64,000 nucleotides of DNA from Thermogemmatispora onikobensis (GTDB lineage Bacteria; Chloroflexota; Ktedonobacteria; Ktedonobacterales; Ktedonobacteraceae). Made by a program: the position numbers and the translations under genes. Below are positions 18,610 to 23,443 of the stretch, one piece after another (the first letter of the stretch is position 1; every line of letters starts with the position of its first letter). The stretch lies in the NCBI RefSeq assembly GCF_001748285.1, contig NZ_BDGT01000003.1:1-64000 (forward strand). Reading direction: 5' to 3'. Under the pieces are notes generated by a model. It did no database searches. It had not been told where the DNA came from and worked only from the letters and a program-made list of their open reading frames with translations.

Positions 18610-18696
18610 GCTTTGTACAGCATGATAGAGTCTCGGAATGCGAGCCTTGTTCTCGATGAAAAATCGATGCCATCTTCAAAAGGCAGGGTAGACGGC

Positions 18697-18990
18697 ATGG
18701 GTGGCACTGAGCAGGCAACTGTGACGCTGCGCTTACCTTCAACGCTGAGCGCCTGCAACGGCGGCAAGAGCCAGATCGTTGTGCGGGCCAGTACGGTAGG
18801 CGAACTGTTCGAGGCGCTGGAGGCCCACTATCCGCAGGTCTGGCGCTGCCTGTGCGATGAGCATGGCTGGGTGCGCGCTCAGATCCAGCTCTTCGTGAGC
18901 AACAAGCTGATTACTGGTCCGCATGACCTGCAGACCGCCTTGAGGCCCGGCGAGGAGATTATTGTGCTGCCTTCTGCTCGGACCCCCTAG
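18697..18990 (+). CDS. ThiS/MoaD-like ubiquitin-fold protein lacking the C-terminal Gly-Gly
   Basis: 97 residues from the ATG at 18697, chosen because GGCAGGG lies upstream and the fold starts right after (VTLRLPSTLS). In-frame starts at 18622 and 18667 would add 25 or 10 residues without a visible ribosome-binding site. The beta-grasp pattern of MoaD is clear: TVGELFEALEAHYP, IQLFVSNKLI, LRPGEEIIVLPSA. Carriers of sulfur in molybdopterin or thiamine synthesis end in Gly-Gly, which is thiocarboxylated; this protein ends in ...LPSARTP. It therefore either needs C-terminal processing, or has a non-carrier role. No moaE, moeB, thiF or thiG is adjacent. Confidence 0.7.
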   Translation: MGGTEQATVTLRLPSTLSACNGGKSQIVVRASTVGELFEALEAHYPQVWRCLCDEHGWVRAQIQLFVSNKLITGPHDLQTALRPGEEIIVLPSARTP

Positions 18991-19068: not shown

Positions 19069-19118
19069 ATGGGCTATCTTCTGCTATGTGGAGGAGAGGA
19101 GGTTTTCAAGGAGACGGG

Positions 19119-20648
19119 ATGTTGGCGCACGTTCGAAGTTGTGCTATTGTGGGTCTGGAAGGCGCCCTGGTCGAGGTGGAGGTTGACCTGGCCAATGGTC
19201 TGGCGGGCTTTACGATCGTGGGCCTGGCCGATACGGCTATTCAGGAGGCGCGCGAACGGGTGCGCGCCGCTATTAAGAATAGTGGGGCGACTTTTCCTTA
19301 TAAGCGGATTACGGTGAATCTGGCCCCCGCCGATCTCCGTAAAGAGGGGCCTGTCTACGATCTCCCCATTGCTATCGGTATTCTGCTGGCCTCGGGCCAG
19401 CTGGTCCCCGCTGAGCCAATTGCTGATTGTCTCTTCCTCGGTGAGCTGTCCCTCGATGGAAGTGTGCGCCATACCAATGGGATTTTGCCAATGGTGGCCC
19501 TGGCACACGAGCGCGGCCTCCGCGCGGTCTTCGTGCCGGCGGTGGATGCGCGCGAGGCGGCCCTGGTGCGCGATGTGCCGATCTACGCGGTGGAGACCCT
19601 CGCCCAGCTGATGGCCCACCTGAGCGGTGAGCAGCGCCTGGCTCCTTTCCCACCAAATTCAGCCCTGCTGCAGGAGGTGAGTCGCCATTGCCCGCCTCAC
19701 GATCTGGCGGCGGTGCGCGGCCAGGACCATGTGAAGCGGGCGCTGGAGGTGGCGGTGAGCGGCGGCCATAATCTGCTGATGAGCGGCCCCCCTGGCACGG
19801 GCAAGACGCTGCTGGCCCGGGCAACGCCGTCGATTATGCCCCCGCTCTCGATTGAGGAGGCCCTGGATGTGACGCGCATCTATAGCGTAGGCGGCCTGCT
19901 GCCGCCAGAGGTGCCGCTCATTATGGAGCGCCCTTTCCGCGCGCCACACCATACGATCAGTCACGCCGGCCTGGTGGGCGGCGGACGCCAACCACGCCCG
20001 GGCGAGATCAGTCTGGCTCACCGCGGGGTGCTCTTTTTGGATGAGTTGCCTGAGTTCAATCAGTATGTGCTGGAGGCCCTCCGACAGCCGTTGGAGGATA
20101 AGGTGGTGACGATTTCGCGCGCCCAGGGGTCGGTGACGTTCCCAGCTAATTTTATGCTGATCGCGGCAATGAATCCCTGCCCATGCGGCTATCTGCACGA
20201 TGTGGCGCGCGAGTGCACGTGTTCGCCAGCGGCGGTGCGCCGCTATCAGAAGCGCGTCAGCGGTCCGCTCCTGGACCGCATCGATATTCAGGTGGAGGTG
20301 CCACGTGTGGCTTATGAGAAGCTGGCCGGCGCTCCAGCTCCAGAGCGTACGGAGCGTATTCGGGCCCGCGTCGAGGCCGCCCGCGAGCGCCAGCGCCAGC
20401 GCTTTGCGAGGACGCGCCTGACCTGCAACGCGGAGATGGGGCCGGCTGAGGTGCAGGCTTTCTGCCGCGTGGATGAGGCCGGGCAGCGCTTGCTGAAGGC
20501 GGCGGTGCAGCAGTTGGCGCTGTCGGCACGCGCTTTTCATCGCCTGTTGAAGCTGGCGCGCACGATCGCCGACCTGGAGGGGACGGAGTTGATCGGTTCG
20601 GCCCATGTGGCGGAGGCGGTGCAGTACCGCCCCCGCATCGCTCCTTGA
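19119..20648 (+). CDS. comM: ComM/YifB-family Mg-chelatase-like AAA+ ATPase
   Basis: 509 residues from the ATG at 19119, which has AAGGAGA six bases upstream; an upstream in-frame start at 19086 has no such site. The N-terminal LonC-like domain begins MLAHVRSCAIVGLEG and has GFTIVGLADTAIQEARERVRAA and NLAPADLRKEG. The AAA+ core has Walker A GPPGTGKT (223-230) and VLFLDELPEF, followed by the Mg-chelatase arm with CPCGY and CSP.AVRRY cysteine turns and SGPLLDRID. ComM is a hexameric helicase promoting branch migration during natural transformation. It stands alone. Function in this organism is inferred from the family. Confidence 0.93.
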   Translation: MLAHVRSCAIVGLEGALVEVEVDLANGLAGFTIVGLADTAIQEARERVRAAIKNSGATFPYKRITVNLAPADLRKEGPVYDLPIAIGILLASGQLVPAEPIADCLFLGELSLDGSVRHTNGILPMVALAHERGLRAVFVPAVDAREAALVRDVPIYAVETLAQLMAHLSGEQRLAPFPPNSALLQEVSRHCPPHDLAAVRGQDHVKRALEVAVSGGHNLLMSGPPGTGKTLLARATPSIMPPLSIEEALDVTRIYSVGGLLPPEVPLIMERPFRAPHHTISHAGLVGGGRQPRPGEISLAHRGVLFLDELPEFNQYVLEALRQPLEDKVVTISRAQGSVTFPANFMLIAAMNPCPCGYLHDVARECTCSPAAVRRYQKRVSGPLLDRIDIQVEVPRVAYEKLAGAPAPERTERIRARVEAARERQRQRFARTRLTCNAEMGPAEVQAFCRVDEAGQRLLKAAVQQLALSARAFHRLLKLARTIADLEGTELIGSAHVAEAVQYRPRIAP

Positions 20649-20982
20649 TGGGCGCCCGGCTCTCGCCCCTCACTTGGCCTTTGTCCCGTCCAGTTGCCGC
20701 TATGGCCCAGCCCTGTGCTCTGGGCTTTGATCCCCCGGATCGCTACAGGGCCGCTGCCCCTATGTTCGTCGCTCGCCAGCTTTCTGGCTGGCCAGCCAGG
20801 AATAGGCAGGTCTGGGCCCGGATTTGGACGGTGCTTTTGTGTTCGCCGGTGCCGGCTCTTCTGCTCTCGCTTTTCCTCGCTGGAGGCACTGGCCCGGGCC
20901 GGGGAGCGGTGAGGTGAGCTTTTCTCTTTGCCCGTACGCGGGTTCTCAAGGCGCATGGGTGAGGTGTGCTTACCCATGCTGC
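20649..20982. other. Intergenic region between convergent genes, with palindromes
   Basis: 334 bp. It contains a perfect 16-bp palindrome CTGGCTGGCCAGCCAG (20784-20799), a GGCCCGGGCC run near 20890-20900, and an 8-bp inverted repeat GCATGGGT/ACCCATGC (20953-20960 and 20972-20979) just after the stop of the leftward HTH gene, which could end its transcript although no T-run follows. No gene is seen. Confidence 0.5.
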
Positions 20983-21234
20983 TCAGTCTGGCTCTTGATC
21001 TGCTTCCGCTCCGTCGTCGTTGCGCGACCTGGGCAGGCGCCCGGGGCCGTAGCGATGGGCCTCAAGATAGGCCTCGATGTCGCTGCGTTTGAACCTCCAG
21101 GCCGAGGCAATCCGATACCCCGTTATTTCTCCTCGCTCTACCACCCGTACCATTGTTCTTCTCGTGACCCCTATGAGCTTCCCGGCCTCGGTGGCAGTAA
21201 GCCACTCTTCCTTCTGGACTCTCCGATCCGTCAT
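20983..21234 (-). CDS. Excisionase-family helix-turn-helix DNA-binding protein (copy 2)
   Basis: 83 residues. A MerR/Xis-like helix-turn-helix occupies 8-60: EWLTATEAGKLIGVTRRTM then VVERGEITGYR and WRFKRSDIEAYLEAHRYGP. It is a close paralogue of the product of 21355-21645 (same EWLT.EV/AG.KLIG, RMVERGE.TGYR.AS.WRFKR.DIEAYLEAHRYGP). Such small proteins bind short direct repeats, as excisionases, plasmid partition or promoter regulators. There is no integrase nearby. The two genes are in tandem on the same strand, separated by 120 bp, which suggests a gene duplication; the C-terminal tail is acidic and unlike that of its neighbour. Confidence 0.82.
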   Translation of the reverse strand: MTDRRVQKEEWLTATEAGKLIGVTRRTMVRVVERGEITGYRIASAWRFKRSDIEAYLEAHRYGPGRLPRSRNDDGAEADQEPD

Positions 21235-21354
21235 GTGTGGCTAACTCCTCTGACGCTGTCTTGCTCTTAGCGCCGCACTGTGTTGCCCTGTTCATCTGCT
21301 AGTGAAGCCAGCCAGCAGACGGCAGCGTCCGGCTCGCGCAGCGTGGGGGCTTGC

Positions 21355-21645
21355 TTAGGAGGGCTGTTCAGTCGTCCCCTTAGCAGTCGTGCCCGGCTCT
21401 TGCTGTGCATCCCCGTTCCTTTTCCCCTCTTGGCGTGTCCCGAGTGGGCGCTCAGGACCATAGCGGTGCGCCTCAAGATAGGCCTCGATATCATGGCGCT
21501 TGAAGCGCCACCTGGAGGCTACACGATACCCCGTTAATTCTCCCCTCTCAACCATTCGCACTACCGTTTTCGGGCCAATCCCTATGAGCTTGCTCACCTC
21601 GTTAGTGGTCAGCCACTCATCTCCGTGGTTACTACGCTCTGTCAT
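21355..21645 (-). CDS. Excisionase-family helix-turn-helix DNA-binding protein (copy 1)
   Basis: 96 residues, same domain as the following gene: EWLTTNEVSKLIGIGPKTV, MVERGELTGYRVAS, WRFKRHDIEAYLEAHRYGP, then a 30-residue hydrophilic tail. It is the promoter-proximal member of the tandem pair and has a good leftward promoter (21684-21712). Immediately beyond that promoter lies an array of 9-bp repeats (21715-21783), the most likely binding site of one or both proteins. The absence of integrase or phage genes argues for a regulator rather than an excisionase. What it regulates is not visible, but the unknown gene at 21951 shares the intergenic region. Confidence 0.82.
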   Translation of the reverse strand: MTERSNHGDEWLTTNEVSKLIGIGPKTVVRMVERGELTGYRVASRWRFKRHDIEAYLEAHRYGPERPLGTRQEGKRNGDAQQEPGTTAKGTTEQPS

Positions 21646-21683
21646 CTACGCCTGGCACCTCACATGCTGTCTTCTTCTTTGAA

Positions 21684-21712
21684 ATTGTATCAGCTTTGCT
21701 TAATTACGTCAA
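21684..21712 (-). promoter_or_regulatory. Promoter of the excisionase-family HTH pair
   Basis: On the minus strand: TTGACG (21712-21707), 17-bp spacer, TACAAT (21689-21684). The -35 box touches the first element of the repeat array. Confidence 0.7.
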
Positions 21713-21714
21713 AT

Positions 21715-21783
21715 AGTCTCTATTGACTCAAATATTCCATATTGACTCTTAGTTACCATTAGACCATAGAGACTATAGAGACT
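21715..21783. repeat. Array of 9-bp repeats, likely operator
   Basis: Read on the minus strand, AGTCTCTAT occurs at 21783-21775 and again, abutting, at 21774-21766; related AGTCAATAT is at 21747-21739 and AGTCAATAG at 21728-21720. AGTCTCTAT also occurs inverted at 21715-21723. The first three direct copies are phased at 9 and 27 bp. Short phased direct repeats are the usual target of excisionase-like HTH proteins. Confidence 0.65.
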
Positions 21784-21950
21784 CGATCTTACGATTAAGC
21801 CATGCTATACTCATAGCAAGGCAAGGAGCCGGGCAGGTTATTCCTGACCCTGGTTGCCGGGTCCGCCAGGCTAGAGCGCTCACTTGCCCGAGCTTTCGCG
21901 ATCAGGATTGCTATTGTTGGAGGTCAAGTCGATCGAAAGGAGTTTTCTGC

Positions 21951-22340
21951 ATGGCAGAAGAACTGCAGTGGGGACAGGCCAGGCTCATCCTGAATCTGGA
22001 GGCTTTTGCTCGTGGCTATCACCAGGGGCGAAAATACTACTTTGAGGAGCGAGAACTCTCGGAGCGCGTATGTCAGTGTCTGGCAGCCACCGACCTGCTC
22101 TGGCTGATCGCCGCGCCCGACGAGAGCGGCCACTATCAGCTCGTGGATGAGAGCCGTCTGCTCACCGAGCTGTCCGAAGGCATTGCCCCGATGCTGGGCA
22201 TGATCGTCGGCTATCTGAGCGGACCGTTGCAGCCCGAGAGCGCCGAGGAGCGTCAGCAGCGCCAGGCCGGGCTTCAGGCCCTGCCCCAAGGCGCTGGTTC
22301 CCTCTCTGAGAGCCGCCAGGCTGGTGCTTCTGCTTCCTAG
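21951..22340 (+). CDS. Hypothetical protein, 129 residues
   Basis: Not recognised. The start is supported by AAAGGAG upstream of the ATG. The first 100 residues look like a compact mixed alpha/beta protein, with FARGYHQGRKYYFEERELSE followed by two Leu-rich segments; residues 103-129 are a Gln/Ser/Ala-rich low-complexity tail. No signal peptide or membrane segment. A strong terminator follows at 22396-22431, so it is a single-gene transcript. It shares its upstream region with the repeat array and HTH pair, so it is a candidate target of those regulators. Confidence 0.7.
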   Translation: MAEELQWGQARLILNLEAFARGYHQGRKYYFEERELSERVCQCLAATDLLWLIAAPDESGHYQLVDESRLLTELSEGIAPMLGMIVGYLSGPLQPESAEERQQRQAGLQALPQGAGSLSESRQAGASAS

Positions 22341-22395
22341 CGGACGCCGGGCCGTCAGCTGGGCCTCAGACCGCTTACCGCCAGAACAGCACAAG

Positions 22396-22431
22396 GAAGG
22401 GAAGGCCTGGCTTTTGCCCCTTCCCTTCTTT
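22396..22431 (+). terminator. Rho-independent terminator
   Basis: Perfect 10-bp stem GAAGGGAAGG (22396-22405) with CCTTCCCTTC (22419-22428), 13-nt loop, then TTT. It follows the unknown gene at 21951. Confidence 0.75.
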
Positions 22432-22495: not shown

Positions 22496-23443
22496 ATGGA
22501 GATCGCTTCTGCCGCTTCACCTTCATCCTCCCCTGCCAACCGCCCGCCCCTCGTTATCCTCAATCCTGCCGCCAACCAGGGTCGTATGCAGCGTCACCGT
22601 GCCCTGGTACGCCAGCGCGCCGCTGCCATAGGAGCCGACTACTGCGAAACCGCGCGCCCTGGTGAGGCTGAAGAGCTGGCGCGCGCGGCTGCCGGTCAGG
22701 GACGGCCCATCGTCATCGTCGGCGGCGATGGCTCCGTTCACGAGGCTGTGAACGGTATCCTCAGCAGTGGTCAGCGTGTCCCTTTGGGTATCATCGCCGC
22801 CGGCTCTGGCAACGACTTCGCTTGCAACACCCTGGGGCTGCCTCGCCGTCCCGAAGCCGCCATTGAGCACGCTTTTGACGGCAAGCCGCGAGCTGTCGAC
22901 GCCGGTCAGGCTAACGAGCGCTACTTTGCCAACTCCTTCAGCGTCGGTCTCGACGCCGACATCGCCGCTGGTGCTCGCCAGCTCAAAAAGATTCCTTTTA
23001 TGACCGGTATGCGCCTCTACTACAGCTCCACTGTCAGGCAGCTTCTCCTTGGCTATCGACAGTGCCCCTGGCTGCGCTTTAGCTTGGAGCCTGCCAATCT
23101 CGAGGCCCCGCCCGCCGAGACCTTCCAACGCTACGTATTGCTGGCCGTTACTAACGGCCCCACTTATGGCTCAGGCTTCCGCATCAACCCCGAGGCCGAC
23201 GCCAGCGATGGCCTGCTTGACCTCTGCACCATTCACTACGCCCCCTTGGGGCGCGCTCTCAGACTCTTCCCTGTCGTCAAACGTGGTCAACACGCTTCCC
23301 TGCCCGAAGTTCACTTCTACCGCATCCAGCGCCTCACCATCGAAAGTCGCCTGCCGCTCAACGCCCAGATGGACGGCGAAGTTTTCCACGGCCAGCGTTT
23401 CGAGGTCACCGTCCTTCCGCAGGCGCTGCTTGTGAGATACTAG
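22496..23443 (+). CDS. Diacylglycerol kinase-family lipid kinase (YegS/DgkB-like)
   Basis: 315 residues. The DAGK catalytic domain is at the N-terminus: PLVILNPAANQGRM, the nucleotide-binding GGDGSVHEAVNG (76-87), GIIAAGSGNDFACNTLGLP. The C-terminal beta-sandwich includes SFSVGLDADI, TNGPTYGSGFRINPEADASDGLLDLC and QMDGE, as in YegS and DgkB. It phosphorylates diacylglycerol or a related lipid at the membrane surface. GGAGG precedes the ATG, and a -10-like TACAAT is at 22453-22458. Single gene. The exact lipid is unknown. Confidence 0.9.
   Translation: MEIASAASPSSSPANRPPLVILNPAANQGRMQRHRALVRQRAAAIGADYCETARPGEAEELARAAAGQGRPIVIVGGDGSVHEAVNGILSSGQRVPLGIIAAGSGNDFACNTLGLPRRPEAAIEHAFDGKPRAVDAGQANERYFANSFSVGLDADIAAGARQLKKIPFMTGMRLYYSSTVRQLLLGYRQCPWLRFSLEPANLEAPPAETFQRYVLLAVTNGPTYGSGFRINPEADASDGLLDLCTIHYAPLGRALRLFPVVKRGQHASLPEVHFYRIQRLTIESRLPLNAQMDGEVFHGQRFEVTVLPQALLVRY

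Follow-up and report, generated by a model that had tools for sequence, protein, structure and literature searches.

What purpose do two small, tandem helix-turn-helix (HTH) genes serve in Thermogemmatispora, a heat-loving soil bacterium, and what is the role of the array of short repeats that lies between their promoter and a divergent gene of an unannotated family? We analysed this locus of T. onikobensis, situated on contig C3 of a 5.56-Mb draft genome, within a stretch of 64,000 nucleotides (the window), and compared it with its counterparts in the nearest relatives, namely T. carboxidivorans PM5, T. aurantia A1-2, T. tikiterensis T81 and the MAGs HOG45 and HOG59. The gene order is a ThiS-like gene, ComM (19086-20648, plus strand), HTH2, HTH1, an AT-rich island, U129, a diacylglycerol-kinase-like gene (DAGK; 22496-23443, plus strand) and Nth. 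A literature search found no paper on this locus, and an Rfam search over 2 kb gave no match. The features of the locus are:

20983-21234, minus strand: HTH2, second of the two tandem genes, an 83-aa winged-helix protein (Pfam HTH_17 E 4.7e-12)
21355-21645, minus strand: HTH1, a 96-aa HTH_17 winged-helix protein, promoter-proximal (Pfam HTH_17 E 3.2e-15)
21684-21712, minus strand: strong promoter of the HTH pair, of sigma-70 type, TTGACG-17 bp-TACAAT (promoter scan 10/12)
21711-21783, minus strand: array of 9-bp direct repeats, 73 bp, consensus RGTCTATAT
21803-21811, plus strand: probable extended -10 of the U129 promoter, TGCTATACT, predicted from sequence and conserved in four genomes
21951-22340, plus strand: U129, a 129-aa protein of an unannotated Ktedonobacteria family
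22393-22431, plus strand: intrinsic terminator hairpin 3' of U129 (-24.6 kcal/mol)

We consider it fairly likely that these features constitute an autoregulatory module, in which HTH1, and probably HTH2, act on the array in a BldC-like manner, repress their own promoter and also control the promoter of U129. As far as seen, the module is specific to Thermogemmatispora.

A fine composition profile shows a GC content of 0.32-0.37 only at ~21650-21800; promoter and array are the sole AT-rich stretch at the locus, and the HTH genes and U129 have a GC content of 0.52-0.71. The AT-rich island claimed in a preliminary description of this DNA is thus retained for the promoter and array (~100-150 bp) but not for the whole 1.4 kb, and this profile led us to abandon the idea of a 1.4-kb AT-rich segment of foreign origin. 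Further upstream, the ThiS-like small protein (18613-18990 of the window), which scores just under the Pfam cut-off, is encoded between an ABC-transporter ATPase gene and ComM; its gene is conserved in the genus and also occurs close to the same genes in genome G026.

The HTH genes had been described as tandem paralogues, and both open reading frames are indeed real: the two proteins are 57-60% identical, and they belong to the HTH_17 domain family (PF12728; 46.4 and 56.6 bits against a cut-off of 27) as well as to the excisionase-family DNA-binding domain TIGR01764 (46.4 and 50.7 bits against a cut-off of 28.8). HTH1 is kept in all six genomes of the genus, and in three congeners HTH2 shows 95-98% identity. 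A single HTH gene, made of residues 1-60 of HTH1 fused to the C-terminal tail of HTH2, is present in T. tikiterensis and MAG HOG59, an arrangement explained by a deletion between the tandem paralogues; the DNA-binding domain that remains is that of HTH1, and the array still lies upstream of it. On the minus strand a hairpin lacking a T run (GCATGGGTAAGCACACCTCACCCATGC; 20942-20970 of the window, z -2.4) is located 3' of HTH2. Elsewhere, one gene of genome G026 (L048, 3506-4153) combines an HTH_17 domain with a LEM-3-like GIY-YIG nuclease; it forms a tandem with an HTH2-like gene, and close by lies a broken ComM that has a partial duplicate. This locus is possibly a homing-type element.

The array can be read on the minus strand as eight units. 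Units 1-3 (AGTCTCTAT, AGTCTCTAT, GGTCTAATG) occupy 21783-21775, 21774-21766 and 21765-21757, and units 4-6 (GTAACTAAG, AGTCAATAT, GGAATATTT) occupy 21756-21748, 21747-21739 and 21738-21730; a 1-bp insertion (G) at 21729 then precedes units 7-8 (AGTCAATAG, AGACTATTT) at 21728-21720 and 21719-21711. The last unit abuts, or runs into, the -35 box of the HTH promoter, whose GACG follows it directly, just as had been noted from the sequence of the window. The hexamers TTGACG and TACAAT are present in all six genomes, and the promoter stretch is almost unchanged throughout. Exact copies of AGTCTCTAT are found at 21775-21783 and 21766-21774 on the minus strand and, inverted, at 21715-21723 on the plus strand, with no further exact copy in the 64 kb, and AGTCAATA occurs on the minus strand at 21747-21740 and 21728-21721. 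The inverted copy to which the preliminary description drew attention is therefore a genuine exact match, but one that coincides with the meeting point of the units AGTCAATAG and AGACTATTT. Likewise, the reported spacings of 9 and 27 bp are present, together with one of 19 bp, which becomes 18 on subtraction of the 1-bp insertion unique to this genome; the broken spacing is a consequence of this insertion in the window copy.

A period of 9 exceeds all other periods from 5 to 15 in each of the six genomes. When autocorrelation at 9, 18 and 27 bp was compared with dinucleotide shuffles, taking the best of periods 5-15 for every shuffle, the corrected p was 0 to 0.0015 in five genomes (0-3 of 2000 shuffles) and 0.07 in the window, where the array is broken by the 1-bp insertion; the six genomes, being related, do not amount to six independent tests. 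The extra G is absent from the other five, which display seven or eight units in strict 9-bp register, so the repeats recur in phase at the orthologous loci. The array of T. tikiterensis lacks exactly one 9-bp unit, and the phase has therefore been preserved through an indel. Together, the exact 9-bp indel and the in-phase position of the weak units argue for constraint on the array, and its promoter-proximal unit AGACTATTT is almost invariant across the genus. At 0-1 mismatch a two-unit motif was found only at this locus in each genus genome, with the exception of a single 1-mismatch match in T. tikiterensis, and at 2 mismatches control patterns yield similar counts of matches. A regulon of this motif was accordingly discarded, and the confinement of the array to its locus points to a local operator rather than a regulon element.

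The only meaningful sequence matches of HTH1 in the PDB are to BldC (6AMA, E 0.0011; 6AMK, E 0.011). Its AlphaFold model, with a core pLDDT of 87-94, has a winged-helix fold of the BldC type without a coiled-coil dimerisation domain, and a Foldseek search with this model recovers BldC-DNA complexes (6AMA and 6AMK) as its top seven matches at 1.0-1.3 A (1.0-1.1 A rmsd for 6AMA), ranked above RacA, Pukovnik Xis and RdfS. BldC protomers occupy one 9-bp direct repeat, AATTXXXX(C), each in a head-to-tail arrangement, and the length of the filament follows the number of repeats (PMC5859096). The present array reads C-TATA-TAGT-C, which is the layout of the BldC repeat. The base-contacting residues of BldC, Arg30 and Lys26, correspond to R30 and K26 in HTH1 and to R30 and R26 in HTH2; some of the array units, but not all, contain the YpG step that Arg30 contacts in BldC. 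Interface positions 21, 23, 31, 40, 42 and 43 are uncharged in HTH1/HTH2 (I, I/V, M/V, Y, V/I and A, respectively) and Glu16 is conserved; the Ala at position 43 replaces Leu43 of BldC, where classical MerR proteins have a charged or polar residue. Against the BldC family model NF033787, HTH1 scores 25 bits for a cut-off of 77 and HTH2 has no match, for which reason we do not classify the pair as BldC members. These comparisons suggest that the pair is BldC-like in its working but stands outside the formal BldC family.

On this basis we propose that HTH1, and probably HTH2, would occupy the 73-bp array with one protomer per 9-bp unit, in the head-to-tail assembly known from BldC. This filament would reach the -35 box of the HTH promoter and exclude RNA polymerase, which makes autorepression, with the level of the proteins set by themselves, the simplest reading; activation from just upstream of the -35 box is also conceivable. 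At its distal end the filament would overlap the -35 region of the promoter that serves the divergent U129 gene and hence control it too, in a direction that is unreadable from sequence. The phase kept in six genomes, the local nature of the array and the match to BldC lend substance to the compact self-regulated module with sites for a multimer that had been envisaged earlier. Binding of the HTH proteins to the array, the filament, repression in preference to activation and any role of U129 are inferred. Counting against a BldC-like mechanism are the low NF033787 score, the weakness of units 4 and 6 of the eight, the 1-bp dephasing of the array in the window, the incomplete set of YpG steps and the result of the following family-wide comparison.

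Among 59 small HTH_17 promoters of the family, 8-11-bp phasing (p<=0.01) was seen in 5, versus 8 of 118 samples of distal DNA from the same loci, which is no excess. In a post hoc comparison, which we treat as a lead, phasing was stronger in HTH_17 genes closer to HTH1 (rho -0.34, p 0.009). Examples have other spacings: an 11-bp array (TCAATTGACAG TCAAATGAACA TCAACTGATGG TCAGATGACAG) with a motif different from that of the window and the spacing of a helical turn lies directly upstream of an HTH1-like gene in G017 (L172 / L050, 3980-4030), and a 10-bp array is found at an HTH_17 promoter in G026.

U129 has no match in Pfam, NCBIfam, PHROGs or PADLOC, and its predicted structure (pLDDT 43, from two sequences) is unusable. 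The extended -10 TGCTATACT, which was not picked up by the promoter scan, lies inside an inverted repeat (21799-21808 / 21813-21822), and the distal unit of the array would share bases with the corresponding -35 region; an extended -10 combined with a poor -35 would be typical of a regulated promoter. A structured U129 leader was considered and rejected (z 0.19, no structure beyond chance). The gene does have a terminator of its own, as had been proposed (z = -4.0), and this hairpin is kept in the genomes with a U129 deletion. Where intact, U129 is under mild purifying selection, with dN/dS values, based on small counts, of 0.34 (against T. carboxidivorans) and 0.28. In T. tikiterensis it is cut at residue 83 via a short TGATC homology between the array edge and the gene, and in T. 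aurantia it is cut independently at about residue 108; having been deleted twice in the genus, U129 is dispensable. HOG59 shows a junction of the T. tikiterensis type on one contig (L061, 1-60) and a nearly intact U129 on another (L044, 4263-4607). Both contigs end there, and 99 bp are exactly identical to MAG HOG45, so the two forms may reflect a mixed assembly, or else a polymorphic deletion.

A profile search recovered distant U129 members in G024, G027, G010 (two) and G009, and T. tikiterensis proved to have a second member. Weak homologies are among them, with E at 1e-6 to 1e-7 for the single protein or the profile, and the profile that served to find others had itself taken in a G010 member. 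Two members lie between a Y1 transposase and TnpB, one in G027 (L046) and one in G024 (L045), the latter after a decayed TnpA and with a divergent HTH_17 gene, and a member in G010 (L086) adjoins TnpB, with an HTH_17 gene ~0.8 kb upstream pointing away. The second G010 member and that of G009 have an XRE-type HTH nearby. The G024 member (L045, 4211-5632) is a U129-like N-terminal part fused in frame to IS605 OrfB/TnpB. An HTH_17 gene is thus adjacent to a U129 gene in three lineages; for genomes of 5-13 Mb with ~10-20 HTH_17 genes each, this would, by a rough estimate, exceed expectation. For the function of U129 this is a lead towards TnpB elements. More tentatively, an HTH_17 gene and a divergent U129-type gene might form a two-gene cassette, new for Ktedonobacteria, which moves within or next to TnpB elements and is self-controlled via helically phased filament arrays, with U129 as a filament partner or antagonist, an extension that we regard as rather doubtful.

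These surroundings of distant U129 members also speak for a rival reading, in which the locus is a decayed mobile element, with the HTH genes and U129 as accessory remnants of an IS200/IS605-type transposon or another integrated element and the array as a transposition or recombination site rather than an operator. The two deletions of U129 agree with this, as does the fact that in two Ktedonobacteria of another genus ComM stands beside DAGK, or is separated from it by one amidohydrolase gene, without the module, which was therefore probably inserted in the Thermogemmatispora lineage. Against it, no phage integrase (PF00589) or resolvase (PF00239) was found on contig C3, in agreement with the preliminary description, no second copy of the locus was found elsewhere in the genome, no DNA similarity of the window locus to IS605 loci was detected, and each of the six genomes preserves array, promoter and HTH genes at this position, with only U129 decaying. 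We therefore judge such an origin of the present features unlikely. U129 was found neither in viral contigs nor in plasmids. The earlier suggestion of a relic is apt for U129, decayed twice and with distant relatives in IS200/IS605 elements, but not for the intact and conserved HTH genes and array; the label excisionase-type derives from the TIGR01764 domain, and an excisionase role is unsupported, there being no integrase or resolvase on the contig.

It is still less probable that some other regulator, be it global, a response regulator or a nucleoid protein, binds the array while the HTH proteins act elsewhere. Repeats of response regulators are usually 10-11 bp apart, which counts against this, as do the length of the unit, which equals that of the BldC site, and the restriction of the array to one locus in each genome, which is at odds with a global regulator. 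In its favor, direct repeats are bound by several response regulators too (PMC5859096), and binding of the array by the neighboring proteins is not provable from sequence. Least probable is a neutral tandem duplication without function: slippage does create short tandem repeats, and the array of T. tikiterensis is shorter by precisely one unit, but the phase is kept across six genomes with even the weak units in register, and the array abuts promoter elements on both sides, with AGACTATTT hardly varying.

If the autoregulatory module proposed here is correct, a conserved 9-bp ladder at such a promoter in Chloroflexota would constitute independent evidence that BldC-type filament regulation extends well beyond Actinobacteria. 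The array would also provide an operator that is small, defined and naturally available in forms lacking one unit or dephased by 1 bp, in which cooperativity can be related to phase and unit number.

Several known systems share elements with this locus. The HTH proteins match MAD1, the HTH protein of the methylation-associated defence system, through HTH_17 (NF047737; PADLOC mad1), but at 36.1 and 44.2 bits for an NCBIfam cut-off of 80, and no other MADS genes are present among the neighbors read. Some distant homologues of U129 are located within or next to IS200/IS605 elements (TnpA Y1_Tnp, TnpB), and a divergent HTH_17 gene accompanies two of them; the window neighbors (ComM, DAGK, Nth) include neither TnpA nor TnpB, and the position is fixed genus-wide. 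Excisionases and RDFs of the HTH_17 group (Pukovnik Xis, 4J2N; RdfS, 8DGL) have the same domain (TIGR01764 above cut-off; PHROG excisionases) and also build head-to-tail filaments on DNA (PMC11963761), but here no integrase, attachment site or element ends were seen, and the array lies between two promoters. BldC of Streptomyces (6AMA, 6AMK; PMC5859096) differs in that the HTH proteins of this chloroflexotan host are ~30% identical to it and form a tandem paralogue pair, with an array at their own promoter only and, at low mismatch, nothing in the genome to indicate a regulon. What the two systems have in common is an HTH_17/MerR-like winged helix without the dimerisation coil, a conserved Arg30, and 9-bp direct repeats that vary in number and have an AT-rich core, followed four bases later by a C.
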